A stretch of DNA of 64,000 bases from Knoellia remsis (GTDB lineage Bacteria > Actinomycetota > Actinomycetes > Actinomycetales > Dermatophilaceae). Under the pieces are notes generated by a model that saw nothing but the letters and a program-made list of their open reading frames with translations, had not been told where the DNA came from and did no database searches. The position numbers and the translations under genes are program-made. Where the stretch lies: NCBI RefSeq assembly GCF_003002895.1, contig NZ_PVTI01000018.1, positions 1-64,000 of the forward strand, written 5' to 3'. Shown in pieces: positions 1,712-61,483 of the stretch (position 1 is the first letter of the stretch; every line of letters begins with the position of its first letter).

Positions 1712-1909
1712 CAGCACCACCGACGTCATCGAAACCGCCGCCAGCGCCCTGGCGTCGGCGCCGGCTGACCGACCGCCACAGAGCACCGACAGAACCCCGC
1801 CACCTAAAGGCCAAGACCACAGCGAGCGGACGACGAGGCGCGGACCCGAGACGGCGCGCGGACGGCATACGGGCGCCTCGCACGAGGCGACCACGCGCGA
1901 TGGCGACGT
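1712..1909. other. Intergenic region between convergent genes
   Basis: I see no convincing gene in these 198 bases. ORFs that cross here read antisense to the neighbouring ligase gene and have atypical Arg/Pro-rich composition. One copy of the recurrent CGGCATAC sequence lies at 1863-1870, within GCGCGGACGGCATAC. Confidence 0.6.
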
Positions 1910-3400
1910 TCAGGGCAGCGGCCAGGTGTGCACCGGCTCGTTCGTCGCCATGTGCTCGGCGTAGAGCTCGAGCATCCGGTGCAGTGCCTCGCGGCGGTCG
2001 AGCCCGCTGTCCTCGAGCCGGCGCACGGCCTCGGTCTGCCACGTCGCCCCGTTGACGCCGGCGCGGCAGCGCTCCTCGATGATGCCGAGGTAGCGCTCGC
2101 GCACCGCATCCGAGACACCCCACTCCTTGAGGCCCTCGTGGGCGAGCGGCAGGAGGTGGCGCAGGACGAGCTCGTCGACGCCGAGCTCGCCGAAGCCGGG
2201 CCAGTAGAGCCGGGCGTCGATGCCGTCACGGGCACCCCGGCGGAAGTTCTCCTCGCACGCCGCAAAGCTCAGCTTGGTCCAGACCGGTCGGTCGTCGCTC
2301 GCGAGCTTGCGGACCGCGCCGTAGTAGAAGGCGGCGTTGGCGAGGGTGTCGGCGATCGTCGGGCCGGCGGGCAGGACCCGGTTCTCCACGCGCAGGTGCG
2401 GCCGGCCGTCGACGATGTCGTAGATCGGCCGGTTCCACCGGTAGACCGTGCCGTTGTGCAGACGCAGCTCGGACAGGTCCGGAGCGACGCCCTCCTCGAG
2501 CTTGGCCATCGGGTCCTCGTCGGTGCTCTCCGCGAGCAGCGCCGGGAAGTAGCGGACGTTCTCCTCGAAGAGATCGAAGATGCTCGTGATCCAGCGCTCG
2601 CCGAACCACACCCGCGGACGGACGCCCTGGTTCTTGAGCTCGATCGGGCGGGTGTCGGTGGCCTGCGCGAAGAGCTCGATCCGGGTCTCGGCGTGGAGGC
2701 GCTGGCCGAAGAAGAACGGCGAGTTCGCGGCGAGCGCCACCTGGACCGCGGAGAGCGCCTGCGCGGCGTTCCAGTGGTCCGCGAAGTCCCCCGGCGCGAC
2801 CTGGAGGTGCAGCTGGACGCTCGTGCACGCCGACTCGGGCGCGATCGAGTCGCAGTAGGTCGCGACCCGCTCCCCCTGCGGCCCGCTGATGTCGAGGAAG
2901 ATGTCCTCCCCGCGGGCGACGAAGATCGAGTCGTTGAGGGCGGTGTAGCGGTTGTTGTCGCTGATCCACTCCCCCTCGTAGTGCTCCGGCATGATCGTCG
3001 GGAGGATGCCGATCGTCACGAGCCGTGAGCCGACCTCGCGGGCCTTGGCGTCCGCCTCGTTGAGCGAGTCGCGCAGGTCCTTCTCGAGCTCGAGCGCGGA
3101 GTCGCCGGGCAGCGGCCGCGGCGGCACGTTGAGCTCGATGTTGTAGCGGGCGAGCTCGGTCTGGTAGCCGGGGTCGGCGATCGCGTGCAACACCTCGTCG
3201 TTGGCGAACGAGGGGTCGTATGCCGCGTCGACGAGGTTGAGTTCGATCTCCAGTCCCGTGAGCGGCCGGTCGAACTCGAAGGAGTGCTGGGTGAGCATCC
3301 GCTCGAACACGTCGAGGTTCTGGCGGACCTTCTCGCGGTAGCGCTGGCGTTCTTCGCGCGTGTAGCTCTGAGCGCTGACCTCGGCACCCACGGCACTCAC
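1910..3400 (-). CDS. Glutamate-cysteine ligase family (GCS2-type) protein
   Basis: This 496-residue protein belongs to the GCS2 carboxylate-amine ligase family (glutamate plus an amine or thiol, ATP dependent). Family-like segments include TGLEIELNLVD near residues 48-58, ALNDSIFVARGED, and RVENRVLPAGPTIAD in the C-terminal half. It is cytoplasmic, with no signal or membrane segment. The gene stands alone, divergent from sbcD. Actinobacteria generally use mycothiol rather than glutathione, so true gamma-glutamylcysteine synthesis is not assured; ergothioneine-type (EgtA-like) or another ligase activity is possible. The start is the first ATG of the frame and was not checked against homologues. 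Confidence 0.75.
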   Translation of the reverse strand: MSAVGAEVSAQSYTREERQRYREKVRQNLDVFERMLTQHSFEFDRPLTGLEIELNLVDAAYDPSFANDEVLHAIADPGYQTELARYNIELNVPPRPLPGDSALELEKDLRDSLNEADAKAREVGSRLVTIGILPTIMPEHYEGEWISDNNRYTALNDSIFVARGEDIFLDISGPQGERVATYCDSIAPESACTSVQLHLQVAPGDFADHWNAAQALSAVQVALAANSPFFFGQRLHAETRIELFAQATDTRPIELKNQGVRPRVWFGERWITSIFDLFEENVRYFPALLAESTDEDPMAKLEEGVAPDLSELRLHNGTVYRWNRPIYDIVDGRPHLRVENRVLPAGPTIADTLANAAFYYGAVRKLASDDRPVWTKLSFAACEENFRRGARDGIDARLYWPGFGELGVDELVLRHLLPLAHEGLKEWGVSDAVRERYLGIIEERCRAGVNGATWQTEAVRRLEDSGLDRREALHRMLELYAEHMATNEPVHTWPLP

Positions 3401-3507
3401 CTCCGGCTCTCGTCGCCCGAACGTCGGGTCGGCTCTCGTCGGCCGGCTCGGGCGGTCGTCGCCGTCACCGGGATGCTCAACTCAACACCATGGGAGCACG
3501 CCGTGCG

Positions 3508-3527
3508 ACCCCTGCGTGGGGGTTTTT
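3508..3527 (+). terminator. Short terminator-like hairpin upstream of sbcD
   Basis: ACCCC (3508-3512) pairs with GGGGT (3519-3523) across a 6-nt loop, followed by five Ts at 3523-3527. It lies between divergent genes, upstream of the likely sbcD promoter, so what it would terminate is unclear. The stem is short and may be fortuitous. Confidence 0.4.
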
Positions 3528-3562
3528 GCGTTTCGGTCCCGGGGGCTGTCGGTGGGTCCACC

Positions 3563-3568
3563 TAGCCT
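3563..3568 (+). promoter_or_regulatory. -10 element for leaderless sbcD
   Basis: TAGCCT lies exactly 7 nt before the GTG at 3576, and no Shine-Dalgarno precedes that codon. This fits transcription starting at the start codon. Confidence 0.55.
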
Positions 3569-3575
3569 CGGTGTC

Positions 3576-4784
3576 GTGCGCATGATCCACACCTCCGACT
3601 GGCACCTGGGGCGTTCGTTCCACCAGGTGGGGCTGCTCACTGCCCAGGCGGAGTACCTCGACCACCTCGTCGAGGTGGTGCGTAGCGAGTCGGTCGATGC
3701 CGTGGTCGTCTCCGGGGACGTCTACGACCGCGCGATGCCGGCGCCGGACACCGTCGAGCTGCTGTCCGAGTCGCTGACCCGGCTGGTCGACGCGGGCGCC
3801 ACCGTCGTCCTCTCGTCGGGCAACCACGACTCGGCGATCCGGCTCGGGTTCGGCGCCGGGCTGCTCGAGCGGGCCGGGCTGCATATCCGCTCCTCGGTGT
3901 CGTCGATCGGCCGGCCCGTCGTCGTGGAGGGCGTCGCCATCCACCCCCTCCCCTACCTCGAGCCGTCGGTCGCCGGGGTGGCGCTCGGCACGGATGAGCG
4001 CACCCACGCCGGCGTTCTCGGGGCGGCGATGGACCGGGTGCGTGCCGATGTCGAGTCGCGCGGCCTGCCGTCGGTCGTCATGGCACATGCCTTCGTCACC
4101 GGTGGCGCGACGAGCGACTCCGAGCGGGACATCTCCGTCGGCGGGGTGAGCGCGGTGCACCCGTCGGTCTTCGACGGAGTGTCGTATGCCGCCCTCGGTC
4201 ACCTTCACGGTCGGCAGCAGGTGTCCGAGACGGTGCGCTACAGCGGCTCGCCGGTCGCCATGTCGTTCAGCGAGTGGCGGCACACCAAGGGCTCGCTGCT
4301 CGTCGACGTGGCCGCGTCGGGTGCGGTGACCGTCGAGGACGTGGCGGCGCCGGTGCACCGGCGGCTCGCGGTGCTGCGCGGCGACCTCGAGGACCTGCTG
4401 TCCTCCCCGGAGCACGAGGCCGCCGAGGACGCGTGGTGCCAGGTGACGCTGACCGACCCGGTGCGCCCGCTCGGCGCGATGGAGCAGCTGCGCCGCCGCT
4501 TCCCGCACACGCTGCGCCTCGAGTTCGACCCGCAGGGCGTCATCGTTCCGGTGCGGACGTATGCCGAGCGGGCCGCCGCCGCCGACCCGGTCGACGTGTG
4601 CTGCGACTTCCTCGCGCACGTGCGCGAGGGGTATGCCGCCACGGACGCCGAGCGTGGCCTGCTCGCCGAGGCGGTCGAGGCCGTCCGTCTCGACCGGGGC
4701 GAGCGGGACGACGAAGGTCGCGCGGGGGCTGGTGCGGGCAGCGAGAAGGCGAGCGGACGGCATACGCGGCGGGGTGTGGCATGA
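3576..4784 (+). CDS. sbcD: DNA double-strand break repair nuclease SbcD
   Basis: This 402-residue calcineurin-like phosphoesterase is the nuclease half of the SbcCD (Mre11-Rad50-like) complex, which cuts hairpins and processes blocked DNA ends. Metal-binding motifs are visible in order: SDWHLGR (residues 7-13), GDVYDR, GNHDSAIRL, VMAHAF and LGHLHGR. The start is taken as the GTG at 3576 (VRMIHTSDWH) because a -10-like TAGCCT lies 7 nt upstream; ATG 3582 is the alternative. The C-terminal tail (SEKASGRHTRRGVA) is low complexity and contains a copy of the recurrent GAGCGGACGGCATAC sequence at 4751-4765. The stop overlaps the sbcC start as ATGA. Confidence 0.93.
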   Translation: MRMIHTSDWHLGRSFHQVGLLTAQAEYLDHLVEVVRSESVDAVVVSGDVYDRAMPAPDTVELLSESLTRLVDAGATVVLSSGNHDSAIRLGFGAGLLERAGLHIRSSVSSIGRPVVVEGVAIHPLPYLEPSVAGVALGTDERTHAGVLGAAMDRVRADVESRGLPSVVMAHAFVTGGATSDSERDISVGGVSAVHPSVFDGVSYAALGHLHGRQQVSETVRYSGSPVAMSFSEWRHTKGSLLVDVAASGAVTVEDVAAPVHRRLAVLRGDLEDLLSSPEHEAAEDAWCQVTLTDPVRPLGAMEQLRRRFPHTLRLEFDPQGVIVPVRTYAERAAAADPVDVCCDFLAHVREGYAATDAERGLLAEAVEAVRLDRGERDDEGRAGAGAGSEKASGRHTRRGVA

Positions 4785-7900: not shown

Positions 7901-7984
7901 TACCGACGACTGATTGCGCACAGTTCGCATGTCCACGCACCTCGGCCGCCCGGCATACCGACGACTGATTGCGCACAGTTCGCA
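7901..7984. repeat. Two direct copies of a 29-bp intergenic repeat
   Basis: The 29 bases at 7901-7929 recur exactly at 7956-7984. Both contain CGACTGATTGCGCACAGTTC. The second copy is entered directly from a CGGCATACC sequence (7951-7959). The same core forms the hairpin between the genes ending at 33827 and 33868. Confidence 0.85.
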
Positions 7985-8066: not shown

Positions 8067-10973
8067 TCAGTCCTCGAAGGCCTCGGGCGGCGGGCAGGAG
8101 CAGACGAGGTGACGGTCGCCGTACGCTCCGTCGATGCGGCGCACCGGCGGCCAGTACTTCGCGAGCGGGTCGACCCCGGCCGGGAACGCCGCCTCCTCGC
8201 GGGAGTACTCGACGTCCCACTCCCCCGCGAGCGACTGCGCGGTGTGCGGTGCCCCGCGCAGGACGCTGCCCGCGACGTTGCCGGACGCACCGGCTGCGTC
8301 GATCTCGCCCCGGATCGCGATCATCGCGTCGCAGAACCGGTCGAGCTCGGCGGTGTCCTCGCTCTCGGTCGGCTCGACCATGAGCGTCCCGGCGACGGGG
8401 AACGACATCGTCGGTGCGTGGAAGCCGTAGTCGATGAGCCGCTTGGCGATGTCGTCGACGGTGACGCCGGTCTGCTTCGTCAGCGGCCGAATGTCGAGGA
8501 TGCACTCGTGCGCGACGAGACCGTCCTCGCCGGAGTACAGCACCGGGTAGTGCTCACGCAGCCGCGCCGCGATGTAGTTCGCGTTGAGCACCGCCACCTC
8601 GGTCGCGCGGCGCAGGCCGGCGCCGCCCATGAGCCGCACATACGCCCACGAGATCGGCAGGATCCCCGCCGAGCCGTAGGGCGCAGCCGACACCGGCCCG
8701 ACACCCGTCTCCGGGCCAGCCTCCGGGGCGAGCGGGTGGTTCGGCAGGAACGGCGCGAGGTGCTCGCGGCACGCGACCGGGCCGACACCGGGACCGCCGC
8801 CACCGTGCGGGATGCAGAACGTCTTGTGCAGGTTGAGGTGCGACACGTCGGCGCCGAACCGCCCCGGCTGCGCAAGCCCGACGAGCGCGTTGAGGTTGGC
8901 GCCGTCGACATACACCTGACCACCGGCGTCGTGCACCATCGCACAGAGCTCGGTGATGGTGTCCTCGAAGACGCCGTGCGTCGAGGGGTAGGTCACCATG
9001 ATCGCCGCGAGGGCGTCCCGGTGCTCCTCGACCTTGGTCTTGAGGTCGAGCAGGTCGACGTTGCCGGTGGCCGGGTCGGTGGCGACGACGACGACCTTCA
9101 TGCCGGCCATGACCGCGCTCGCCGCGTTGGTCCCGTGCGCGCTCGACGGGATGAGGCAGATCGTGCGCTCCTCGTCACCCTGCGAGCGGTGGTATGCCGC
9201 GATCGCGAGCAGGCCGGCCAGCTCACCCTGCGAGCCGGCGTTGGGCTGCAGGGAGACCGCGTCGTAGCCGGTGACGTCGCAGAGCCACTGCGACAGCTCG
9301 GCGATGAGGTGGCGGATCCCCTCGGTCTGGTCAGCCGGCGCGAAGGGGTGCAGCGACGCGAACTCCGGCCACGTCACCGCGAGCATCTCGGTCGTCGCGT
9401 TGAGCTTCATCGTGCACGACCCGAGCGGGATCATGCCGCGGTCGAGGGCGAAGTCGCGGTCGGACAGTCGCCGCAGGTAGCGCAGCATCGACGTCTCGCT
9501 GTGGTGGCTCGAGAAGACCGGGTGCGTGAGGTACCCGCTCGTCCGGTCCAGCCCCTCGCCCCAGTTCGGTTCTGCAACAGGCACATTCGTCGGCGCGTCG
9601 ACACCGAACGCCCGGCACACGGCGACGAGGTCGTCGAGGTAGGTCGTCTCGTCCACGGACACAAGGACGGTGTCGCCGTCGTGGCGCCACAGGTTGACGC
9701 CCTCGGCGACAGCGGCCGCGACGACGTCGTCGGCGCGGCCCTCGACGCGCGCAGACAGGGTGTCGAAGCCCGCTCCGTCGAGCACGTCCACACCGCCGGC
9801 GCGCAGCGCCGCGACGAGCGCTTCGCGGTGCGCGTGGATGCGCAGCGCGATGGCGCGCAGCCCGCGCGGGCCGTGGTAGACGGCATACATGCTCGCCATC
9901 ACGGCGAGGAGCACCTGCGCCGTGCAGATGTTCGACGTCGCCTTCTCGCGGCGGATGTGCTGTTCGCGGGTCTGCAGCGCGAGCCGGTATGCCGGTGCGC
10001 CGGTCGCGTCGACGGAGACGCCGACGAGGCGGCCGGGCAGGGTGCGCTCGAGCCCGGAACGGACAGACATGTAGCCCGCGTGCGGGCCGCCGAAGCCGAG
10101 CGGCACGCCGAAGCGCTGGGTCGTCCCGACGGCGATGTCCGCGCCCCACTCCCCCGGTGCGGTGGCCAGGGTGAGGGCCATGAGGTCGGCGGCGGCCGTG
10201 ACGAGCGCACCTGCCGCATGGGCGCTTTCGGCGAGGGCACGGTGGTCGCGCAGCCGGCCGTGCAGGTCCGGGTACTGGACGATGACGCCGAAGACCGGAC
10301 GTCCTCCCGCAGCCTCGGACAGACCCTCGGCGGTGGTCACGTCGGTGAGGTCGGCGACGACGAGGTCGATCCCGAGCGGCAGCGCACGGGTCCGCATCAC
10401 GGCGAGGGTCTGCGGGAAGACAGCCTCGTCGACGAGCAGGACGGCGTCGGACGCGACCTTGCTCGCCCGGCGCATGAGCGTCATGGCTTCCGCGGCGGCG
10501 GTGGCCTCGTCGAGCAGGGACGCCCCGGCCGTGGTGAGCCCGGTGAGGTCGGCGACGACCGTCTGGAAGTTGAGCAGGGCCTCGAGCCGGCCCTGGGAGA
10601 TCTCCGGCTGGTAGGGCGTGTAGGCGGTGTACCACGCGGGGTTCTCGAGGACGTTGCGCTGGATCACCAGCGGGGTGATCGTGCCGTAGTAGCCCAGCCC
10701 GATCATCGGCGTGAGGACCGTGTTGCGGTCGGCGAGAGCACGCAGCTCCTCGACGACAGCGTACTCGGAGTCGGCCGGGACGATGTCGATCGACCCGGTC
10801 GCCCGGATCGCGGCGGGCACGGCCGTCGACGCAAGGTCGTCGAGGCTGGAGCGGCCGATCGCTTCGAGCATGCGCGCGACGTCGGCCTCGCTGGGCCCGA
10901 TGTGTCGTCCGGCGAACGCGGGCAGTGTGGTCGCGGTGGACGAGCTTGTGGTGAGGTCGATGGGGTCGGTCAT
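8067..10973 (-). CDS. gcvP: Glycine dehydrogenase (decarboxylating), P protein
   Basis: This 968-residue PLP enzyme decarboxylates glycine and transfers the methylamine group to lipoyl-GcvH. It is a single-chain P protein with both halves; the PLP lysine lies in [17 protein letters not shown] near residue 715. N-terminal features include [13 protein letters not shown] and the glycine-rich GLGYYGT segment. The start ATG has AGGAG about 10 nt upstream. A glycine riboswitch precedes it, and gcvH is in the same strand cluster at 13736. The gcvT and lipoamide dehydrogenase genes are not in the window. Confidence 0.97.
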
Positions 10974-12484: not shown

Positions 12485-13189
12485 TCAGGACCGGGCGAGA
12501 CCACCCTTGACCAGGGCGGCATGGAGCTGCAGGCAGAGCCGCGCGATCGCCGCCTCGTCGTCGGCTCGCCCGCCGCCTCGGCGGGTGCTCATCGCCTGCT
12601 CGACGAGGCCGACCTCGCGGTCGGCAGCCGTGCGAAAGGGCCGGAGGTGCCGCGCCTCGATGCCGTATGCCGCGAGGCCGGCGGCCGCGTGCGCGGCCTG
12701 CAGGTCCGTGGCCGAGTAGTGACCGCTCTTGTCGGGACGGAGGACACCGAACCCCTCGAGCGAGTCCACGACGTCCGCGTCCAGACCGGTCGCCTCAACG
12801 AGCTCGGCACGGGTGAGCCGGACGCTACGGACGCGCGTGAGCTCGGCCGCCGACGGCACGTCGGGGTCCTCCGCCGGCTTGGGGGCGCGCGGCCGCTCGG
12901 CGTCACCCCCGGTGCCGGGCGGCTCGAGCCCGCGGTCGAGCGCGTCGAGGGCCTCGCGGATGACCCGGAGCGGCCAGAACCGGTCCCGTTGCGCCCGCAG
13001 CACGTAGCGCAGCCTGTCGACATCGGCCGGCGTGTAGGTGCGGTAGCCGGCCGGGGTGCGGTCCGGGGTGACCAGACCCTCTCCCTCGAGGAAGCGCAGC
13101 TTGGAGATGCTGATGTCGGGGAACTCCTCGCGCAGCGCGTCGAGGACCTTCCCGATCGTCAGCGGGCGCTCAGGCCTGCTTGGCGGCAT
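12485..13189 (-). CDS. MerR-family regulator FtsR-like (Rv1828-like)
   Basis: This 234-residue regulator has an N-terminal MerR winged helix (ISKLRFLEGEGLVTPDRTPAGYRTY, about residues 24-48), an Arg/Pro-rich linker and a C-terminal helical domain. The orthologue in Corynebacterium (FtsR) activates ftsZ; the one in M. tuberculosis is Rv1828. The ATG at 13189 lies inside the end of the FHA gene, overlapping by 20 bp, which indicates translational coupling. A longer open frame upstream is a shadow of the FHA gene. Cluster context supports the assignment; the regulatory target is inferred from the family. Confidence 0.88.
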   Translation of the reverse strand: MPPSRPERPLTIGKVLDALREEFPDISISKLRFLEGEGLVTPDRTPAGYRTYTPADVDRLRYVLRAQRDRFWPLRVIREALDALDRGLEPPGTGGDAERPRAPKPAEDPDVPSAAELTRVRSVRLTRAELVEATGLDADVVDSLEGFGVLRPDKSGHYSATDLQAAHAAAGLAAYGIEARHLRPFRTAADREVGLVEQAMSTRRGGGRADDEAAIARLCLQLHAALVKGGLARS

Positions 13190-24256: not shown

Positions 24257-24340
24257 CCCCAGCCGTGGCCATGCTCGGTTCAGTGTGGCGGAGGGGAGGA
24301 ATTGGTGAGTTGCGCACGCACGGCGAGCGGCCGGCATACC

Positions 24341-45202: not shown

Positions 45203-45368
45203 AGAGGTGCCTTTGCTCCAGCTCCTTGGAGCAAATCACGCTGGTGCTCCAGTTCCTTGGAGCAACTCACGCTGGTGCTCCAGTTCCTTGGAGCAATTCA
45301 CGCCGGTGCTGCGGCTCCTTGGAGCACCGGCGTGAGTTGCTTCCGTATGCCGCAGCAAAGGCACCTCT
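45203..45368. repeat. Intergenic element: three 31-bp repeats in a 15-bp inverted repeat
   Basis: AGAGGTGCCTTTGCT (45203-45217) and its exact reverse complement (45354-45368) bracket three 31-bp tandem units (45216, 45247 and 45278). Each unit contains the hairpin TGCTCCA-GTTCCT-TGGAGCA or a close variant. A fourth, degenerate unit (from 45309) ends in an inverted copy (GGAGCACCGGCGTGAGTTGC). One CGGCATAC sequence lies near the right end. It may act as a terminator for yajC-side or ruvB-side transcripts. Confidence 0.85.
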
Positions 45369-47236: not shown

Positions 47237-47745
47237 CGCGCGCCCGCCTTCGCGAGAGCGTCGAGCCGAGCCGTGGCCGCGCCGCGCCAGAGGTGGCAGA
47301 TCGCCAGCGCCAGCGCGTCCGCGGCGTCGGCGGGCCGCGGCGCCTCGGTGAGCTTGAGGATCCGGGTCACCATCGTCGTCACCTGCGCCTTGTCGGCGCG
47401 GCCGGTGCCGGTCACCGCGGCCTTGACCTCCGTCGGCGTGTGGAAGACGACCGGTATGCCGCGCTTGCCGGCCGTGAGGAGCGCGATCGCCGTCGCGTGG
47501 GCCGTCGTCATGACGGACGTGACGTTGCTGTCGGCGAAGACCCGCTCGACGGCGACGACCTCCGGCGTGAACCGGTCGAGCCACCCGTCGAGCTCGCGCT
47601 CGAGGAAGATCAGCCGCTCCCCCGGGTCACCGTCGCTCGGGGTGCGCACGACCCCGACGGCGACCATGCTCGCGCGGCCGGCCCGGCCGTCGACGACGCC
47701 GAGGCCGCACCGGGTGAGGCCAGGGTCGATGCCGAGAACGCGCAC
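47233..47745 (-). CDS. ruvC: Crossover junction endodeoxyribonuclease RuvC
   Basis: This 170-residue resolvase cuts Holliday junctions. The catalytic acidic residues are in [11 protein letters not shown] (Asp near residue 6), [12 protein letters not shown] (Glu near 68) and [14 protein letters not shown] (Asp pair near 140). GTG 47745 is chosen because GGAAGG lies upstream; an upstream GTG (47784) would add 13 residues. The ruvC-ruvA-ruvB genes are translationally coupled. Confidence 0.94.
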
Positions 47746-47898
47746 GCGCGCCGCCTTCCGTCGTCGTGCCGGGTGAGCGCCCACTGCACCTCAGCGGGCT
47801 CCGAACAGGTGTTCGGTGCCACGCTACACAGGCGCGCCGGACGCGCCCGGCAGCAACACGCGCGGGTGCGCGGCCGGCATACGGCAGCAGCGTGGAAC

Positions 47899-48657: not shown

Positions 48658-49262
48658 GCGCCCTCTTTCACGATCTCGACGAACAACTGGTGGAACCGGT
48701 GGTCACCGGTCACTTCCGGGTGGAAGGAGGTGGCCAGCAACGGCCCCTGACGAACGGCGACGATCCTACCCGCGGCCGGTCCGGTCTCCACGCGCGCCAG
48801 CACGTCGACGGCCTCTCCGACCTGCTCGACCCACGGCGCGCGGATGAACACGGCACGCACCGGCTGCGGCCCGAGCTCGCGGATGTGCAGGTCCTCCTCG
48901 AAGGAGTCGACCTGCCGCCCGAAGGCGTTGCGGCGCACCGTGATGTCGAGCCCGCCGAGGGTCTGCTGGTCGCGGTGGCCGTCGAGGATCCGGTCGGCGA
49001 GCATGATCATGCCCGCGCAGGACCCGTATGCCGGGAGGCCGGCTTCCAGCCGTGCCTTCAGTGGTGCGTGGAGGTCGAAGAGGCGGACGAGCTTGTCCAT
49101 CGTGGTCGACTCCCCGCCGGGGATGACGAGGCCGTCGACGGCCTCGAGCTCGGCGGGCCGGCGCACGGTCACGGCGGCGGCACCCGCGGCCTCGAGCGCG
49201 CGGACGTGCTCGCGCACGTCACCCTGGACGGCGAGGACTCCGATGGTCGGCTGGGCGGTCAC
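48654..49262 (-). CDS. pdxT: Pyridoxal 5'-phosphate synthase glutaminase subunit PdxT
   Basis: This 202-residue class I glutaminase supplies ammonia to PdxS. Motifs are [22 protein letters not shown], the Cys nucleophile in GSCAGMIML and the His/Glu pair in [12 protein letters not shown] 49262 is supported by TAGCAT 7 nt upstream. Its partner pdxS is 6 kb away, unlike the usual close pairing. Confidence 0.95.
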
Positions 49263-50016: not shown

Positions 50017-51102
50017 TCAGGCGAGCCAGGCGATGTAGAAGATGCTGAGGCCGGTGAGGACGAAGACACCGGCGATGACCCAGAAGCGAATGACGACGTT
50101 GACCTCGGACCAGCCGAGGTGCTCGAAGTGGTGGTGGATCGGCGTGATCCGGAAGATCCGCCGGCCCGTCCCGGTGAAGCGCCGGGTGAGCTTGAACCAC
50201 GTCACCTGCAGCATGACCGACATCGTCTCGAGGACGAGAACTCCCGCGATGACGGCCATGAGCACCTCGGTGCGGGACATGATCGCGAACCCGGCGAGTG
50301 CTCCCCCGATGGCGAGCGACCCGACGTCGCCCATGATGATCTGGGCCGGCTTGGCGTTCCACCAGAGGAAGCCGACGCAGGCACCCGAGATCGCCGCGGC
50401 ATACACCGCGAGGTCGAGCGGGTCGCGCACCTGGTAGCACTGCTCCGCGACGACGTTGGGCCGCGCCGAGCCGCACAGCTGGTTGCTCTGCCAGACGTTG
50501 ATGAGCAGGTAGGCGCCGAAGATCATCGCGCCGATGCCGGTGAGCAGGCCGTCGACGCCGTCGGTGAGGTTGGCGGCGTTGGAGGTCGCCGTGACGATGA
50601 ACCAGATGAGCAGCAGGACGACAACGAGCGGCAGCTTCACGCCCCAGTCCTGCGTGATCGACAGCGACTGCGAGGCCGGCCGGACACCGCGCTCGTCGGC
50701 GAAGAACTGTGTCGCGAGGACGCCGAACACCAGCGCGATCGCCGTCTGCCCGAGCATCTTCGCCTTGCCGGGCAGGCCGCGGTTGTCCTGCTGGTAGACC
50801 TTGATGAAGTCGTCAAGGAACCCGAGGACCGCGCAGCCGACGAAGAGCAGCATGAGCAGCCAGGCGCTCGCGCTCGGGGTGTGGCCGGTCGCGAACGTGG
50901 CGACGAGGTATGCCGCGGTGGAACCGAGGACGATGACGACGCCACCCATCGTCGGGGTGCCGCGCTTGACGAGGTGGGTCGTCGGTCCGTCGACGCGGAT
51001 GGGCTGGCCGAAGCCGTGCTTGCGGAACCAGGCGACGGCTGCTCGGGTGCCGAACAGGGTGAGGGTCAGCGCGATGGCGCCACTGAGCGCGACGCCCCGC
51101 AT
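50017..51102 (-). CDS. MraY-like phospho-N-acetylmuramoyl-pentapeptide transferase
   Basis: This 361-residue, ten-helix membrane protein has the MraY signatures: TPTMGGV, LGFLDDFIKVYQQDNRGLPGKAKM with the catalytic Asp pair, SNAANLTDGVDGLLTG, and the PIHHHFEHLGW motif. These would transfer phospho-MurNAc-pentapeptide to undecaprenyl phosphate to form lipid I. Active-site residues are intact. ATG 51102 has GAGGAGG upstream. It is not in a dcw (mur/fts) cluster here, so it may be a second copy or an orphan; the window cannot tell. Confidence 0.88.
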   Translation of the reverse strand: MRGVALSGAIALTLTLFGTRAAVAWFRKHGFGQPIRVDGPTTHLVKRGTPTMGGVVIVLGSTAAYLVATFATGHTPSASAWLLMLLFVGCAVLGFLDDFIKVYQQDNRGLPGKAKMLGQTAIALVFGVLATQFFADERGVRPASQSLSITQDWGVKLPLVVVLLLIWFIVTATSNAANLTDGVDGLLTGIGAMIFGAYLLINVWQSNQLCGSARPNVVAEQCYQVRDPLDLAVYAAAISGACVGFLWWNAKPAQIIMGDVGSLAIGGALAGFAIMSRTEVLMAVIAGVLVLETMSVMLQVTWFKLTRRFTGTGRRIFRITPIHHHFEHLGWSEVNVVIRFWVIAGVFVLTGLSIFYIAWLA

Positions 51103-51340: not shown

Positions 51341-52594
51341 ATGAGCGACGACGCCCTCACCGAGCTCCGCCAGCGCGCCGACCGGCTCGACGCCGAGCAC
51401 GTCGCCACCGACCGGCGCGACGCGTTCGAGCTGCCGGAGGGCGTGACCTACCTCGACGGCAACTCCCTCGGCGCGCTGTCGCTTGCCGCCCGTGACGCCC
51501 TGCGCGACGCCGTCGACCGACAGTGGGGCCGGCAGCTCATCCGCGCCTGGAACGAGTCGCGGTGGTGGACCGCCCCCGAGCGAGTCGGCGACCGCATCGC
51601 CGAGCTCGTCGGCGCGCCGGCGGGCAGCATCGTCGTCGGAGACTCGACGACGGTGAGCCTCTACAAGGCCGTGTATGCCGCGGCGCGGCTGCGCGCGGAC
51701 GACTCACGTCGCGTCGTGCTCACCGACCCCGACTCGTTCCCCACCGACGTCCACGTCACCCGCGGCGTGTGCGACCAGCTCGGACTCACCCTCGAGCTCG
51801 TGCACCCGACAGAAGCCGCCTCGCGCCTCGAGGGCTCGAACGACGTTCTCCTCGCGGCCTACTCGCACGTGGACTACCGCACCGGCGAGCTCTGGGACCT
51901 CGCCGCGATCACCCGGGCCGCCCACGACGCCGGCGCCCTCGCCTGCTGGGACCTGTGCCACTCGGCCGGCGTCGTCGACGTCGACCTCGCCGGCGGTGGC
52001 GCGGACTTCGCCGTGGGCTGCGGCTACAAGTACCTCTCCGGCGGCCCCGGCGCCCCGGCGTTCCTCTATGTCGCACCGGCTCACCTGCCGCGGTTCACCA
52101 ACCCCATCCTCGGCTGGAACGGTCACGCCACCCCCTTCGCGATGTCGCCCGAGCACGTCCCCGCCGAGGGCATCACCCGGGCCCGGGTCGGCACCCCGCC
52201 CGTCCTCGGGATCGTCGCGCTGGAAGGCGCGCTCACGGCATACGACGGCCTCTCGGTCGGCGACGTCCGGGCACGCTCGCTCTCGCTCACCGGCTTCTTC
52301 CTCGACTGCCTCGACCTGCTGGGCATCGACCTGCCGGTCGCCACCCCGCGCGAGGACACGCGGCGCGGCTCACAGGTCAGCCTGCGGCACCCCGATGCGT
52401 ATGCCGTGGTGCAGGCCCTCATCGCGCGCGGGGTCATCGGCGACTTCCGTGAGCCGGACATCGTGCGGCTGGGTTTCGCGCCGCTCTACCTCTCGCACGG
52501 CGACGTGCTCGACGCGGCGACGGCACTGCGGGAGGTCCTCGTCGGCGAGGAGTTCGCGCGTCCCGAGCACCGGCGGCGTGACCTCGTGACCTGA
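51341..52594 (+). CDS. kynU: Kynureninase
   Basis: This 417-residue PLP enzyme cleaves kynurenine to anthranilate and alanine. Family features include YLDGNSLGAL (residues 33-42), the PLP lysine in GCGYKYLSGGPGAPAFLYV (near residue 229), and WDLCHSAGVVDVDLAG. No other tryptophan-catabolic gene (dioxygenase, formamidase) is in the window. It is preceded by the 18-bp inverted repeat. fdhD follows 18 bp after its stop with its own -10-like element. Confidence 0.92.
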   Translation: MSDDALTELRQRADRLDAEHVATDRRDAFELPEGVTYLDGNSLGALSLAARDALRDAVDRQWGRQLIRAWNESRWWTAPERVGDRIAELVGAPAGSIVVGDSTTVSLYKAVYAAARLRADDSRRVVLTDPDSFPTDVHVTRGVCDQLGLTLELVHPTEAASRLEGSNDVLLAAYSHVDYRTGELWDLAAITRAAHDAGALACWDLCHSAGVVDVDLAGGGADFAVGCGYKYLSGGPGAPAFLYVAPAHLPRFTNPILGWNGHATPFAMSPEHVPAEGITRARVGTPPVLGIVALEGALTAYDGLSVGDVRARSLSLTGFFLDCLDLLGIDLPVATPREDTRRGSQVSLRHPDAYAVVQALIARGVIGDFREPDIVRLGFAPLYLSHGDVLDAATALREVLVGEEFARPEHRRRDLVT

Positions 52595-53419: not shown

Positions 53420-53455
53420 CCCGCGAACCGGAGCGGACGGCATACCGCAAAGAGC

Positions 53456-53956: not shown

Positions 53957-53962
53957 ACCGTA
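53957..53962 (-). promoter_or_regulatory. -10 element for the gene at 53456
   Basis: TACGGT on the minus strand lies 6 nt before GTG 53950. Confidence 0.4.
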
Positions 53963-54051
53963 TGCCGACCCGGATCCGGACGGGCCGGGTCCGCGGGGTC
54001 GTGCCAAGGCGCGGGTGACTCTCGCGGCTCGCCCATGTCAGACACACGTAC

Positions 54052-54342: not shown

Positions 54343-54345
54343 TCG

Positions 54346-54750: not shown

Positions 54751-54811
54751 CCGCGTCGGCCCCGGCAGCGTCAAGCAGCGTCAGGCAGCGCCCGTATGCC
54801 GCCCGCTCACC

Positions 54812-55842: not shown

Positions 55843-56433
55843 TCAGTCGACGACGGCCGGAGGCAGGTCGTCGTCGAACTCGACCGGCTCGGGCAGCGCG
55901 GCCCGACCGGCGAGCCGGAACAGCCGGACGAACCACTTCTCGCGCACGCGGCGCACCTCGCGGACCGCGTCGTTGTGGAAGCGTCGCGCCATCTGCGCGC
56001 GCAGGGCGCTGGCCTCGACCCGGGCCAGCGCATCGGAGCCGGGACCTTGGGGATCGGCACGGAGCTCGGCCACCGTCTCGGGCGTCAGCGCCGCCTTGAG
56101 CGCGTCGGTGAGGTCGGTCTCGGTGTGCTCGCGCCCGGCGAAGTTCTGTCCGTCGAGCAGGTCGTGGCTGAGCGGGTGGTGCGTATGCCGTTCGAGGGCT
56201 CCGCTCGCGGCGTCTGCGAGCAGGAGGGAGGTGGCCGGGTCCACGGCGCCGCTCGTCGCGAGCTCGAGAGTGGCCTCGGCGCGACGGACGAGCTGGGCGT
56301 CGAGGGCGGACACCGCCCCCTCGACCTTGGCGTGCAGCCGGTCGAGGCGGGAAGCGGAGTAGGAGAGGTACCACGCCGCGGCGAGTACGACGAGGGCGAC
56401 GATCGTCGCGACCTGGAGGATGTCGACCTGCAT
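55843..56433 (-). CDS. LemA-like membrane-anchored protein
   Basis: This 196-residue protein has an N-terminal membrane helix ([19 protein letters not shown], about residues 5-23) and an extracytoplasmic helical domain. [24 protein letters not shown] and [24 protein letters not shown] resemble the LemA family, whose role is not settled. The start overlaps pimA by 1 bp, so the genes are coupled. The LemA assignment is moderate. Confidence 0.7.
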
Positions 56434-57632
56434 CAGCTCTCACCTCTCGCGGGCCAGCGCAGCCGGCTCAGCAGCCCCGGTCGCTGGATCGGGTCCAGGG
56501 GCGCGCGGTCAGCGCCGTCGATCACCGTCTCGTAGACCGCCATGACCCGCTCGGCGACGACGTCCCAGTCGAAGGAGCGAGCCCGGCGCAGGCCGAGGTC
56601 ACGAAGTCGCGACCTCTCGTCCGGGGTGCGGAGCAGCTCGACCACGGCCTGCGACAACGCCGGCGAGTCGCCGTTGGCGAAGGTCGCACCGGCGGGCCCG
56701 TCCGGGCCGTCCCCGAGGACGGCCGTGAAGGCGCACAGGTCGCTCGCGAGCACCGGCGCGCCAGCGGCCATCGCCTCGACGAGGACGATGCCGAAGCTTT
56801 CCCCGCCAGTGTGCGGTGCGACGTAGACGTCGGCGGAGCGCAGCAGGTCGACCTTGTCGGCCTCCGAGACCGCACCGAGGAACTCGGTCGCCGCCCGCAC
56901 GCGCGGGTCCAACGCGCCGCGGATCTCGTCGACGTCACCGGGACCTGCGACGACGAGCCGGACGCCCGGCACCGCGTCGAGGATCGCCGGCATCGCGTCG
57001 GTGAGGACCGACAGGCCCTTGCGCGGCTCGTCGATCCGACCGAGGAACGCCAGGACCGGGCGCTCGGCCGTCCCGGAGAAGCGGGTCGTCTCCCCCGACG
57101 GCGTGAACCGGCCGGTGTCGACGCCGTTCGGGATGATGTAGGCGTCGCCCCCGAGGTGCCTCACCACCGTGCTGCGCGCCTCCTCCGAGACGGCGATGCG
57201 GGCGCGGATCTTCTCGGTCGACGGCCGCAGCAGCGGGTTCGCCGCGTGCATGGCCCGTGAGCGGAGGTTCGCCGTGTGGAAGGTCGCGACGACCGGTTCG
57301 GAGGACGCCCACAGCGCCATGAGCGACGCGCTCGGCGTCACCGGCTCGTGCAGGTGCAGGACGTCGAACTCGCCCTCCTCGAGCCAGCGGCTCACCCGCG
57401 ACGACGTCACCGGCCCGAAGGTCAGCCGGGCGACGGACCCGTTGTAGCGCACCGGGACGGCGCGTCCGCTGGAGGTGACGTATGCCGGGAGGTCGCCGAC
57501 GGGGTCGTCGACCGGAGCGAGGACGCCCACCTCGTGCCCCTGGGCCGTGAAGTGCTCGGCAAGGTCGCGGACGTGGAACTGCACGCCCCCTGGCACGTCG
57601 AAGGCGTAGGGGCAGACGAGGCCGATCCTCAC
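56433..57632 (-). CDS. pimA: Phosphatidylinositol alpha-mannosyltransferase PimA
   Basis: This 399-residue GT4-family enzyme adds the first mannose to phosphatidylinositol. It begins [26 protein letters not shown] with the GGVQ loop and has the C-terminal donor site ([39 protein letters not shown]). The start overlaps the acyltransferase stop by 4 bp. With the next two genes it forms the PIM biosynthesis block (Rv2610c-Rv2612c order). Confidence 0.94.
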
Positions 57633-58654
57633 CGCGCCTCCCCCGCGGTTGTCTCACCCGCAGCGGCCTCCCCCGCCGCCTCCGACCCCGGGACGTGCGC
57701 CGCCCCGGCCCGGGCCAGGCGGTCCGCGTCGAGGTCCTTGGTGAAGACCGGCTGGAGCATGTGCCAGTCCGCGGTATGGGTGCGGACGGCGCCACCGAGG
57801 GCGTCCGCGCACGCCTGGGTCATCGCCGCGACCCGTTCGGCCGTCGTCCCGGTCCCGGGGTCGGCCACGGCCGGGTGGAAGGTGATGACGATCCCCCATC
57901 GGGCGCCGCTCCCCACGGGCAACTTCTCGTGCCGGATGGACACCGGGAACAGCGGTCGTCGCTCCGCGATCGCGAGGGCCGCCGGACCGGCCGCCATGCG
58001 AGCGGGAGACCCGCAGAAGTCGACTTCGACCCCGGAACGCGACAGGTCGCGGTCCGCGAGCAGCGGGATGAGCCCGCGCCGCCGCGCCGCCTCCCGCAGC
58101 AACGGGAACGGCGCCGGTCCGCCGGTGAGCGGGTGGATGGTCATCCCGAGTCCGGTGCGGAACGCGAGGAACTCCTCGAAGACCTCCTCCGGCTCGAGCC
58201 GCTCCGCGACGGTTGTCACGGGGGCGAGGTGGACGGCACCCCACGCGCCGGCGAGGTCCCAGTTGCCGAGGTGGCCGAGGAAGCAGACGACCGACCCGCC
58301 GTCGTCGAGCACGGCCCGGACCGGCTCGTCGCCCTCGACCCGCACCCGGGCCGCGAGCTCGTCCGGACCGAGGACGGGCAGCCGGAAGGCCTCGCAGTAG
58401 TAGCGCAGGTACGCCCGCATGCCGTCACGGACCAGCGCGTCGAGGGCTGCGTCGTCGAGCTCGGGCCGCACGATGGCGTAGTTCGAGCGCATCCGCGCGG
58501 CCCCGCCGCGCGCCACGGTGAGGTCAGCGATCCGGTCGAAGAGCGCGTACGCCGCGCCCTCCGGCATACGGCGAAGGAAGGCCCAGCCGCCCCGGAAGCC
58601 GGCCACGGTCGCCGCGTCCCGGACCCGGCCGAGCACCCCCATCGCGCCGGTCAC
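57629..58654 (-). CDS. PIM acyltransferase PatA-type
   Basis: This 341-residue acyltransferase of the LpxL/PatA family has the HLGNWD (HX4D-type) motif near residue 124 and a later conserved Glu. It is expected to acylate the mannose of PIM1/PIM2 at the inner membrane face. The C-terminal 30 residues are Ala/Gly/Glu rich. The GTG at 58654 overlaps the PIP synthase stop as GTGA. Confidence 0.9.
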   Translation of the reverse strand: MTGAMGVLGRVRDAATVAGFRGGWAFLRRMPEGAAYALFDRIADLTVARGGAARMRSNYAIVRPELDDAALDALVRDGMRAYLRYYCEAFRLPVLGPDELAARVRVEGDEPVRAVLDDGGSVVCFLGHLGNWDLAGAWGAVHLAPVTTVAERLEPEEVFEEFLAFRTGLGMTIHPLTGGPAPFPLLREAARRRGLIPLLADRDLSRSGVEVDFCGSPARMAAGPAALAIAERRPLFPVSIRHEKLPVGSGARWGIVITFHPAVADPGTGTTAERVAAMTQACADALGGAVRTHTADWHMLQPVFTKDLDADRLARAGAAHVPGSEAAGEAAAGETTAGEAR

Positions 58655-59891: not shown

Positions 59892-59943
59892 AGCACCCGG
59901 TAGGGCACCCGCTGCCGCCGGCAGCGTCGGGCGACACGTGTGA

Positions 59944-59981
59944 GGGCCGCGGTGCCGTCCCCTGACTCGGCACCGCGGCCC
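59944..59981. terminator. Strong hairpin in a divergent intergenic region
   Basis: GGGCCGCGGTGCC (59944-59956) pairs with GGCACCGCGGCCC (59969-59981) across a 12-nt loop. It lies between divergent HIT and transporter genes, so it may insulate the two promoters or be part of a small RNA; no T-run follows. Confidence 0.45.
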
Positions 59982-60061
59982 TTCACCCACTCAGACGCCT
60001 GAAATGCCCGTGAGGTTGCCTCGTGTCGGAAACAATTTCCGTCTCGGCTGTCGGGCGCCGC

Positions 60062-60090
60062 TTGTCGTGCACGCTCCGTCGTCGCAGGGT
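60062..60090 (+). promoter_or_regulatory. Promoter of the MHS transporter gene
   Basis: TTGTCG (60062-60067), a 17-bp spacer and CAGGGT (60085-60090) precede ATG 60097 by 6 nt. The -10 is poor. Confidence 0.4.
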
Positions 60091-60096
60091 GCAGGG

Positions 60097-61437
60097 ATGA
60101 CCACGACTCCCGGCACCCCCTCCGGACCGTCCGCGCCCGACGCCTCCGGGTCCACGAGCACCCTGGAGCGCGCCCGCGCCCACTCGCCCCGCCAGCTCGC
60201 CGCGGCCTCGGTCGGCAACCTCGTCGAGTGGTACGACTGGTACGCCTACAGCTTCCTCGCCGTGTACTTCGCGACCCAGGTCTTCCCCGAGTCGGAGTCG
60301 GGTCTTACCCAGCTGCTCAACACCTTCGCGATCTTCGCGGTCGGCTTCTTCTTCCGCCCCGTCGGCGGTCTGCTCATGGGTGCACTCGCCGACCGGATCG
60401 GGCGCAAGCCGGCCCTCACCGCGACGATCCTGCTCATGGGGGCCGGGTCGCTGCTCATCGCCGTCCTGCCGACCTACGCGAGCGTGGGCATCCTCTCGCC
60501 GATCCTCCTGGTCCTCGCCCGCGTCATCCAGGGCCTGTCGGTCGGCGGTGAGTTCGCCGCCGCGACGACGTTCCTCGTCGAGAGCGCGCCACCGAAGCGC
60601 CGCGGGTTCTTCTCGAGCTTCCAGTACGTCTCGACGACCATCGGTCAGCTGCTCGCGTCCGGTCTCGCGGCGTGGCTCGCGTCGTCGCTCTCCGAGGGCG
60701 ACATGCAGTCGTGGGGCTGGCGCATCCCGTTCTTCGTCGGGGCCGGGCTCTCGCTCGTCGGTCTCGTCATCCGCGCCGGCGCCCACGAGACACTCGAGGA
60801 CGCCGAGGACCTGCGGACCGGCCGCACCGCCCGACCGGGCCTGTTCGACGCGCTCAAGCACCACCCCCGCGAGTCGCTCCTCATCGTCGGCATCACCATC
60901 GCCGGCACCATCGCGTACTACACGTGGACGACCTACCTGCCCACCTATGCCCAGACCTACGCGGACGTCTCCAAGGCGGACTCGCTCCAGGCCGGGACGA
61001 TCGCGCTCGTCTTCTTCGCGCTGCTCCAGCCGGTCATGGGCACGATCTCGGACCGCATCGGCCGCAAGCCGCTGCTCATCACGTTCGCGGCGTTCTTCGT
61101 CGTGGCGACGGTGCCGCTGCTGCGCCTCCTCGACACGTCGATGTCGCGGCTGCTGCTCGTGCAGTGCATCGGCATGGTCTTCCTCGCGATGTTCACCTCG
61201 ATCTCGGCCGCGGTGAACGCCGAGACGATCCCCGCCCGCGTGCGAGCGTCGGGGATCGGCTTCCCGTACTCGCTCTCCGTCGCCCTCTTCGGCGGGACCG
61301 CGCCCTACGTCGGGACGTGGTTCAAGGGACAGGGCATGGACTCGGCCTTCCCCATCTACATCAGCGTGCTCTGCCTCGTGTCGCTGCTCGTCTACGTCTT
61401 CGCACTGCGCGAGACGGCGCACAAACCGCTCCCGTGA
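60097..61437 (+). CDS. MFS transporter, metabolite:H+ symporter (MHS/KgtP-like) family
   Basis: This 446-residue, twelve-helix transporter has the MHS signature NLVEWYDWYAYSFLAVYFA (about residues 41-59), GALADRIGRKPAL, and GLSVGGEFAAATTFLVESAP, and a second loop motif SDRIGRKPLL. Members carry alpha-ketoglutarate, citrate, proline/betaine or similar compounds; the substrate is unknown. It stands alone, convergent with a secreted protein gene. Confidence 0.9.
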   Translation: MTTTPGTPSGPSAPDASGSTSTLERARAHSPRQLAAASVGNLVEWYDWYAYSFLAVYFATQVFPESESGLTQLLNTFAIFAVGFFFRPVGGLLMGALADRIGRKPALTATILLMGAGSLLIAVLPTYASVGILSPILLVLARVIQGLSVGGEFAAATTFLVESAPPKRRGFFSSFQYVSTTIGQLLASGLAAWLASSLSEGDMQSWGWRIPFFVGAGLSLVGLVIRAGAHETLEDAEDLRTGRTARPGLFDALKHHPRESLLIVGITIAGTIAYYTWTTYLPTYAQTYADVSKADSLQAGTIALVFFALLQPVMGTISDRIGRKPLLITFAAFFVVATVPLLRLLDTSMSRLLLVQCIGMVFLAMFTSISAAVNAETIPARVRASGIGFPYSLSVALFGGTAPYVGTWFKGQGMDSAFPIYISVLCLVSLLVYVFALRETAHKPLP

Positions 61438-61442
61438 GGTGA

Positions 61443-61483
61443 GCGGACGGCATACCGGCGCGCCGTGTCGGTATGCCGTCCGC
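61443..61483. terminator. Bidirectional hairpin built from the recurrent GCGGACGGCATACCG sequence
   Basis: GCGGACGGCATACCG (61443-61457) and its exact reverse complement (61469-61483) form a 15-bp stem with an 11-nt loop, 5 bp after the transporter stop. It lies between convergent genes. Two copies of the recurrent sequence are facing each other here. Confidence 0.75.

Follow-up and report, generated by a model that had tools for sequence, protein, structure and literature searches.

Two diderm proteobacterial families, Neisseriaceae and Pasteurellaceae, are the ones for which self-tag-gated DNA uptake has been described. Another kind of iterated word is HIP1, a very abundant palindromic octamer found throughout cyanobacterial genomes. 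In the available text of the respective papers, the DNA uptake sequence (DUS) of Neisseriaceae is present in 943-5,918 copies per genome and S. muelleri has two DUS dialects in one genome (Frye et al. 2013, PMC3630211), inverted pairs of uptake sequences are mentioned as hairpins with a terminator role called contentious (PMC2346458), and natural transformation of Micrococcus luteus depends on the Flp pilus (Angelov et al. 2015, PMC4322843). Here we analysed a stretch of 64,000 nucleotides from Knoellia remsis (the window), together with the rest of the genome and its relatives. We put the probability at about 0.77 that the octamer CGGCATAC is the core of a DNA uptake sequence in this Knoellia genome and in many Dermatophilaceae/Intrasporangiaceae genera, read by a Tad/Flp pilus.

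An abundant, strand-symmetric octamer

An earlier note on the window had reported an over-representation of GGCATAC and its reverse complement, nearly always preceded by C. We count 59 copies of this 7-mer (26 forward, 33 reverse), the same number as its hand count, and 57 of them are CGGCATAC (25 forward, 32 reverse). The chance level for CGGCATAC in the window is a mean of 0.86 and a maximum of 4 copies (100 dinucleotide shuffles), and the Markov expectation is 0.84, 1.59 and 2.81 at orders 1, 2 and 3; the order-4 value of 16.8 comes from a model that already holds most of the word. The sites are listed below, where "core" denotes CGGCATAC and mismatches refer to the 16-mer consensus GAGCGGACGGCATACC.

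1863..1870, +, core, intergenic; 16-mer 1856-1871, 2 mismatches
3218..3225, -, core
4184..4191, -, core
4559..4566, -, core
4631..4638, -, core
4758..4765, +, core; 16-mer 4751-4766, 1 mismatch
7951..7958, +, core, intergenic
9192..9199, -, core
9881..9888, +, core
9987..9994, -, core
12665..12672, -, core
16273..16280, +, core
16943..16950, -, core
17087..17094, -, core
17356..17363, +, core; 16-mer 17349-17364, 1 mismatch
17795..17802, -, core
19152..19159, +, core
21893..21900, +, core
24332..24339, +, core, intergenic; 16-mer 24325-24340, 1 mismatch
24816..24823, +, core; 16-mer 24809-24824, 2 mismatches
24864..24871, +, core
25144..25151, -, core; 16-mer 25143-25158, 2 mismatches
26443..26450, -, core
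28097..28104, -, core
28762..28769, +, core
31386..31393, -, core
31872..31879, -, core
32026..32033, +, core; 16-mer 32019-32034, 2 mismatches
32148..32155, +, core
34021..34028, +, core
34092..34099, -, core
35703..35710, -, core
39157..39164, +, core
39508..39515, +, core
40523..40530, -, core
41289..41296, -, core; 16-mer 41288-41303, exact
41334..41341, -, core; 16-mer 1 mismatch; 45-base spacing
41379..41386, -, core; 16-mer 2 mismatches; 45-base spacing
42924..42931, +, core
45345..45352, -, core, intergenic
46835..46842, +, core; 16-mer 46828-46843, 1 mismatch
47454..47461, -, core
47875..47882, +, core, intergenic
49026..49033, -, core
50397..50404, +, core
50908..50915, -, core
51673..51680, -, core
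52236..52243, +, core
52399..52406, -, core
53438..53445, +, core, intergenic; 16-mer 53431-53446, exact
53960..53967, -, core, intergenic
54794..54801, -, core, intergenic; 16-mer 54793-54808, 2 mismatches
56183..56190, -, core
57480..57487, -, core
58562..58569, +, core
61448..61455, +, core, left arm of hairpin, intergenic; 16-mer 61441-61456, exact
61471..61478, -, core, right arm of hairpin, intergenic; 16-mer 61470-61485, 1 mismatch
61443..61483, no strand, inverted pair of extended motifs forming a hairpin; the called genes on either side are convergent

A genome-wide count, which the earlier note had proposed, gives 3,277 copies of CGGCATAC in 3.57 Mb (1,655 forward, 1,622 reverse) versus 276 copies of the reversed control word. 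There is no strand bias in the window (p = 0.43) or in the genome (p = 0.58), and replication polarity is absent from a contiguous 200 kb of C1 (97:99) and, by eye, from the other stretches examined. Over-represented octamers of the Chi and KOPS kind exist, but a polar recombination or segregation signal of this type is contradicted by the strand symmetry of CGGCATAC; we regard it as very improbable, in agreement with what the earlier note had concluded from the two common orientations. Even spacing, for which it had proposed a test, is not what we see: the distances are exponentially distributed, as for random placement (window KS p = 0.91; CV 1.00 over 498 kb), and the sites are therefore neither clustered nor even. 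Gene calls covering 464 kb of the genome contain 317 TAT codons, 130 of them within GTATGCCG, and 32 ATA codons, 20 of them within CGGCATAC; the suggestion that the word often forces TAT for tyrosine is borne out. Tag-poor stretches include a 10.5-kb gap in CGGCATAC that holds CBASS-like genes and the examined part of an insert in the genome's own tadA.

Extended consensus, origin of the sites and hairpins

The eleven long-consensus sites named earlier are all present, at most one base from where they had been placed and with 0-2 mismatches to GAGCGGACGGCATACC; four further 16-mers with 1-2 mismatches start at 1856, 17349, 24809 and 32019. Near-copies of the 16-mer thus exist, as had been claimed, but the 16-mer does not behave as a fixed unit: only its 8-mer core is invariant, whereas the bases upstream, approximately GGCGMGCGGA, follow a weak and mainly intergenic preference. 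Sites are denser between genes (2.10 versus 0.74 per kb), where the consensus is also longer. Called genes contain 307 of 486 sites, 146 in sense and 161 in antisense orientation (p 0.42).

We compared the sites with eight congeners. Leaving out 205 unaligned cases from 456 comparisons, sites are kept in 143 of 251, and control 8-mers, matched on AT and not on codon position, in 30-37%. Retention is about 1.5-2.1 times this control in the larger congener comparisons (6-7 of the 8); in the smallest one (G001), with 4 of 11 sites kept, it is 1.05 times the control and no better than background. Where congeners lack a site, the alignments show substitutions, with indels in 13 of the 251 comparisons. 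CGGCATAC sites arise through point mutation and are held above background. These data bear on the idea that GAGCGGACGGCATACC belongs to the unit of a small, dispersed REP/MITE-like mobile repeat. In its favour some longer near-identical copies could be cited, three of them at 45-base spacing (41288-41393). Flanks more than about 10 bases upstream show no conservation, the majority of sites are genic, absences in congeners are substitutions, and the 16-mer occurs in 13 viral contigs in a single copy each, about chance by our estimate. The flanks and the few indels do not show a conserved unit with insertion polymorphism, and we give such a repeat hardly any credence.

Opposite-facing neighbours less than 45 bases apart make up 21 of 472 neighbour pairs versus 10.3 expected, an approximately two-fold excess; same-facing pairs less than 40 bases apart are mildly in excess as well (13 versus 9.2). 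Twelve of the 21 lie between tandem genes, five between convergent and none between divergent genes, three within genes and one at an edge. Four selected pairs, one of them in the CGGCGTAC dialect described below, fold as unbroken hairpins. The window hairpin (61443..61483) has 19 unbroken pairs, two of them G-U as RNA, and folding of 61436-61492 yields -46.1 kcal/mol (z -8.5). Intergenic inverted pairs that form hairpins, a trait of DUS and of the Pasteurellaceae USS, are thus present here. The strong intergenic hairpins and the lack of pairs between divergent genes would also suit a family of transcription terminators with a standardised stem sequence. Close opposite-facing pairs are, however, few, most copies are single and genic, and a T-run terminator was looked for at the window hairpin and none was found. 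Termination as the primary role is contradicted and most implausible; it would be a secondary use at most.

Dialects and competence genes in the family

Comparison with related genomes, also suggested by the earlier note, revealed that CGGCATAC is enriched in 30 of the 53 genera of the family Dermatophilaceae/Intrasporangiaceae and that spelling variants are found in others; with these, dialect-bearing genera number about 37 of 53 (author-set thresholds in both cases). Within the order, CGGCATAC is limited to this family: it was the one spelling counted in 362 genomes of 19 other families, and its copies stayed below 400 in every one of them. Several genera without CGGCATAC have a one-letter variant, CGGCATCC or CGGCGTAC, each single-letter dialect being abundant in its own genera, and such variants are the top 8-mer by unbiased ranking in four genomes (G082, G033, G121 and G030). 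The enrichment of CGGCGTAC is weaker over a higher natural background (46 seen versus 9.7 expected in 60 kb). In other genera, CGTCATAC is a co-dialect beside CGGCATAC. Two dialects coexist in G084/G085 (CGGCATAC and CGGCATCC) and in G011 and g27 (CGGCATAC and CGTCATAC), and a cobalamin gene cluster is spelled in CGGCATAC within a CGGCATCC genome.

The Knoellia genome carries comEA, comEC and two tad clusters. Of 80 relatives, 79 have ComEC, whether they carry the word or not; the sole genome without a match (G193, 760 contigs) has 1,407 word copies. The tad-1 ATPase is absent from 9 of the 80 genomes, all nine of which lack every tested dialect (Fisher p 1.7e-4 by genome and 5.7e-4 by genus, kinship ignored). 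Many genera have an intact tad-1 yet no dialect, among them G141 and G065 with a complete tad-1 and neither CGGCATAC nor any tested variant; the machinery therefore does not predict the word. The genome's own tad-1 tadA is interrupted by an insert, and this strain may therefore not be competent now. Candidate pilins for a sequence-specific receptor were found, and a test of whether the tad-1 pilins diverge according to dialect detected no signal (one-sided p 0.24-0.95). Our literature searches on Dermatophilaceae found no uptake or transformation experiment.

The presence of ComEC and tad-1 in most family members regardless of the word would suit a highly iterated chromosomal maintenance motif, HIP1-like or nucleoid-organising, which a house-keeping protein binds or methylates and which has no role in uptake. 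Such a motif could equally be genome-wide, on both strands, conserved, confined to one family and variable in spelling, its dialects tracking changes in the DNA-binding specificity of the protein. HIP1 is likewise a very abundant genome-wide octamer, but it is palindromic whereas the CGGCATAC core is asymmetric, and we know of no hairpin pairs or dialects of this sort for it. The surplus of intergenic opposite-facing pairs, the extended intergenic consensus, the CGGCATAC-spelled cobalamin cluster in a CGGCATCC genome and a dialect pattern that repeats several particulars of Neisseriaceae DUS also argue against a maintenance motif, which we consider unlikely.

The uptake reading and known systems

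Three options had been offered for the word. The dispersed repeat is not supported, given the few indels, and the uptake-like option fits best because of the density, the non-polarity, the intergenic hairpins, the family-wide spread and the spelling dialects. Also in its favour are the retention of sites, the comEA/comEC and tad genes, the lack of every tested dialect in genomes without the tad-1 ATPase, and the tag-poor stretches; the dialect-free genera with intact tad-1, the interrupted tadA and the missing pilin signal weigh against it. We infer sequence-selective uptake, competence of the cells and a tag-reading protein as follows. Competent cells would bind double-stranded DNA with the word via a receptor associated with the pilus, for which a TadE/TadF/TadG-like minor pilin of the tad-1 Flp pilus is the simplest candidate. 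The bound DNA would be drawn in through ComEA/ComEC and then recombined. Because tagged DNA would be preferred in uptake, the tag would spread and persist by transformation, as a molecular drive. It would build up where it is cheapest, between genes and at Ala-Tyr/Tyr-Ala codons, and be reused for hairpins between genes; a shift in receptor specificity could lead to another spelling in other genera.

It is rather likely that this represents an independent origin of uptake-sequence-gated natural transformation, without precedent among Gram-positive phyla, read by a Tad/Flp instead of a classical type IV pilus, with at least four spellings (CGGCATAC, CGTCATAC, CGGCATCC and CGGCGTAC) and with pilus genes repeatedly broken by integrases and prophages. 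If so, an actinobacterial family would provide, in roughly two of every three of its genera, an independent replicate of the evolution of tag-gated uptake, and natural transformability would be predicted for these bacteria. The right tag on donor DNA would offer a handle for genetics, dialects would trace gene flow between genera, and minor pilins of Tad pili would be possible sequence-specific DNA receptors.

The machinery resembles that of M. luteus: comEA/comEC, two tad clusters whose genes run tadA-B-C-(flp)-tadE/F-tadG (PMC4322843, PMC8467076), the pilin motifs G/XXXXEF in tad-1 and G/XXXXEY in tad-2, and an FtsK/SpoIIIE-type ATPase beside tad-1 (here shown for G133). The term 'uptake sequence' is absent from the available text of both papers. 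With the USS, as described in the accessible parts of PMC2346458, CGGCATAC shares a similar density, the lack of a genome-wide orientation bias and a non-random reading-frame placement. Its sequence is unrelated, its extension lies upstream and is GC-rich, and the orientation bias of USS within genes (PMC2346458) is not marked here (146/161). From Neisseriaceae DUS the word differs in its unrelated phylum and sequence, its monoderm cells and its Tad/Flp clusters; a PilT model scores above the cut-off in a single one of 80 genomes, and pilins are candidates for a ComP-like receptor. The likenesses to DUS, as far as the available text of PMC3630211 describes it, are several: a short asymmetric word at about one per kb, a copy number of 3,277 within the DUS range, dialects that differ between genera by one or two letters, two dialects in one genome, some genera of the family without any, and local segments in a foreign dialect.

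The word and its placement

The over-represented 8-mer CGGCATAC (hereafter the word) probably serves as a DNA uptake sequence, recognised by a competence pilus of the Tad/Flp type; judging from genome sequence, we put this at roughly three in four. The word occurs 57 times in the 64-kb window against 0.86 expected from dinucleotide shuffles, and 3,277 times in the 3.57-Mb genome of Knoellia remsis (G000; 1,655 forward and 1,622 reverse), where the control, the word reversed, occurs 276 times. In 464 kb of this genome it has the top z-score among all 8-mers, with 456 copies seen and 25.5 expected from a third-order Markov model, a figure that the word's own copies inflate. The earlier note had counted GGCATAC about 59 times by hand, and our recount is 59; its eleven long-consensus sites all match the 16-mer GAGCGGACGGCATACC with zero to two mismatches. 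It had also thought a polar KOPS-type signal unlikely, and we rejected such a signal on the grounds of strand symmetry, both genome-wide and over 200 contiguous kb (97:99). Spacing is random (CV 1.00 in the fetched stretches; KS p 0.91 in the window). We found no mismatch halo around the word, the one-mismatch forms reaching at most 1.91 times the third-order expectation. Two further sequences are over-represented in the fetched G000 stretches, CCAATTGG (50 seen, 1.3 expected) and ACTGATTGC/GCAATCAGT (40 seen, 0.1 expected). The latter adjoins a word site near window position 7965 and is probably a separate dispersed repeat.

Over 498 kb, 307 of 486 sites lie in genes, 171 are intergenic and 8 straddle a boundary, which gives 2.10 per kb between genes versus 0.74 per kb within them, as called by a small purpose-written gene caller rather than an established one. 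The commonest base before the word is A, and the commonest after it are G and C; at intergenic sites, about ten upstream bases lean towards GGCGMGCGGA. Within genes, 247 of the 307 sites fall in two of the six frames, encoding Tyr-Ala (135, reverse word) or X-Ala-Tyr (112). The word was suspected of forcing TAT for tyrosine, and indeed 130 of 317 TAT codons lie inside it, as do 20 of 32 ATA codons. At 41288-41393 of the window, the extended motif is repeated three times at an exact 45-base spacing, as a short tandem array within one called gene.

Opposite-facing neighbours less than 45 bases apart make up 21 of 472 neighbour pairs, against 10.3 expected, and same-facing pairs closer than 40 bases are in mild excess (13 versus 9.2). 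The 21 lie in gaps between tandem genes (12), between convergent genes (5), between divergent genes (0), in genes (3) or at an edge (1). Four of them, selected by us and including one from a genome with the variant spelling CGGCGTAC, form uninterrupted hairpins with folding energies of -46 to -50 kcal/mol (z -7.7 to -10.1). The example in the window is:

61443-61483, hairpin between convergent genes

Scanning for terminators gave none of the T-run type at this hairpin.

Distribution and dialects in the family

Among 186 genomes of the family Dermatophilaceae/Intrasporangiaceae, 30 of 53 genera have members enriched in CGGCATAC. In 362 genomes from 19 other families of the order, the count of CGGCATAC, the one spelling counted there, stays below 400 throughout (maximum 180, control 195). 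Within the family, many members without CGGCATAC have variant spellings, or dialects. CGGCATCC is the variant in genera g17, g26 and g54 (up to 4,480 copies), and CGGCGTAC in g66, g23, g24, parts of g51 and g3, and genome G118 (up to 4,185). CGTCATAC co-occurs with CGGCATAC in G011 (1,557 copies) and in each of the five genomes of g27 (1,622-1,966); CGGCATAC and CGGCATCC coexist in G084 and G085. An unbiased 8-mer ranking places the variant first in G082, G033, G121 and G030. In the g27 genome G034, CGCCATAC, CGTCATAC and CGGCATAC all rank high; G118 has 1,463 copies of CGGCGTAC, and in 100 kb of it CGCCGTAC (rank 1) and CGTCGTAC are commoner still.

Dialect carriers are found in 37 of 53 genera, a genus being counted if one member passes. 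The minima, applied by eye, were 400 copies and a ratio of 2.4 to the reversed control for CGGCATAC, a ratio of 8 for CGGCATCC, and 1,000 copies with a ratio of 6 for CGGCGTAC; the intermediate genomes G009, G181, G026, G075 and G077 were counted as non-carriers. In the stretches examined, g63, g9, g10, g15 and others have no clear dialect, and g2 has at most a weak CGGCATCC signal. In G065, a species with none of the four spellings, CGTAGACC/GGTCTACG ranks first over 116 kb fetched (39 copies against 8.7 expected, spread over 36 different 1-kb bins) and might be another motif or a matter of codon use. A scan of named genomes with the 16-mer gave at least 109 loci. Among the matches listed, 37 are from Knoellia and the remainder from Janibacter sp. 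HTCC2649, Terrabacter, Humibacillus, Phycicoccus, Tetrasphaera and others, with single loci in unrelated bacteria. The 16-mer matches once in each of 13 viral contigs, which we estimate to be about what chance would give.

Maintenance of sites and word-poor DNA

We compared the sites with eight congeners at 80-83% identity, over the stretches that share synteny with the window (60 kb for six congeners, 20 kb for the two others). Of 456 comparisons, 205 did not align and were dropped; in the other 251 the word is conserved 143 times (57%), against 30-37% for control 8-mers with three A/T. The six larger sets keep the word at 49-69%, or 1.5-2.1 times the control. In the two smaller sets it is kept at 9 sites out of 17 and at 4 out of 11, the latter not exceeding the control. 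Where a congener lacks the word, the alignment shows substitutions, with indels in 13 of 251 comparisons. Since the word is kept above the control and its absences are substitutions, its sites are by and large maintained, with point mutations creating and removing them. On these alignments we rejected a mobile repeat; the earlier note had offered a dispersed small repeat family among its readings.

Within the fetched DNA, the longest interval lacking the word spans 10.5 kb (G000 contig C3, stretch L121:3294-13837) and encodes a SMODS nucleotidyltransferase with a weakly SLATT-like neighbour, a CBASS-like arrangement. An insert in the G000 tadA gene has no word in its fetched 5.8 kb. A small contig of G121 has 5 copies of CGGCGTAC in 20 kb, versus 46 in 60 kb of the G121 chromosome. 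On the 63.9-kb contig G121:C1 (stretch L161), an AAAACAAGTAG-like word occurs about ten times in 20 kb and is possibly an iteron or other plasmid repeat. G082 is a CGGCATCC genome (4,480 copies versus 361 of CGGCATAC), and its first 20 kb (G082:C1:1-20000, L167), which include a cobalamin cluster with CobN, CbiC, CbiM and tetrapyrrole methylases, have 13 CGGCATAC and 2 CGGCATCC. This cluster may have come from a relative that uses the other spelling, a mis-join at the assembly start being possible too. A parallel to such a foreign-dialect segment exists in Neisseria subflava (PMC3630211).

Competence genes and known uptake systems

G000 has comEA and comEC on contig C37, a tad-2-like cluster with the Flp motif GMTTAEY, and a tad-1-like cluster of tadA, tadB, tadC, a small pilin-like gene, two TadE-like genes and one TadG-like gene. 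We searched for these functions in 80 genomes of our choice from the 186, covering 49 of 53 genera. The tad-1 TadA (E 1e-60) is missing in nine, all nine with none of the tested dialects, and in none of the 47 dialect carriers (Fisher p 1.7e-4 by genome and 5.7e-4 by genus, kinship ignored). Here G061 (785 CGGCGTAC, 5.1 times) counts as a carrier, and moving it changes 1.7e-4 to 2.3e-4; by genus, g67, with tad-1 in one of two genomes, counts as having it. TadA is present in 24 of 33 non-carriers; tad-1 machinery does not predict the presence of the word. G141 and G065 had been considered as losses of the word through missing machinery, a reading that found no support: both have a complete tad-1 cluster. 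ComEC is uninformative because it is present in 79 of 80 genomes, and the sole miss, G193, carries the word. A classical type IV pilus was considered and rejected, the PilT model exceeding its cut-off in G032 alone of the 80, with strong sub-threshold matches in G013 and G095.

A 6.8-kb insert carrying two genes of the phage-integrase family interrupts the tad-1 tadA of G000 (C3:49260-57273; L205:13254-20000; L200). The gene is also split in G015 (11-kb insert) and G035 (35-kb insert), and partial TadA matches occur in several further genomes, both carriers and non-carriers. No pilin genes were found beyond tadC in the fetched stretches of G118, G060 and G033. Near the end of tadC there is a phage head gene in G060 and a phage tail-like gene in G118; no phage or other gene was identified near tadC in the G033 stretch. 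The cluster resembles a hot spot of integration. Competence genes elsewhere are known targets of repeated insertion, and insertion into tad-1 fits a role in DNA uptake. Loss of the word in G118 through its broken cluster was considered and dropped because this genome proved rich in CGGCGTAC.

The main rival to an uptake sequence is a maintenance or methylation motif. In most of the genomic features that we tested the word behaves as uptake sequences elsewhere do, with three exceptions. Residual divergence of tad-1 pilins between dialects gave no receptor signal; 24 of 38 loci entered this comparison, after dropping 7 no-dialect loci, those of the mixed genomes G084 and G171, the incomplete ones of G033, G060 and G120, and those of two congeners, G000 and G006. 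The machinery is not predictive. Orientation bias inside genes is not marked, unlike in known uptake sequences as described in PMC2346458. Among the open-access papers listed in our searches, bioRxiv preprints excepted, none describes an uptake sequence in Actinobacteria in its title or displayed abstract. An uptake pilus of the Tad/Flp kind would have a counterpart in Micrococcus luteus, whose transformation, according to PMC4322843, requires two tad clusters. The two clusters of G000 match these, and the tad-1 cluster of family member G133 adjoins a divergent FHA-FtsK/SpoIIIE gene, much as tad-1 of M. luteus adjoins the FtsK/SpoIIIE gene Mlut_07490.
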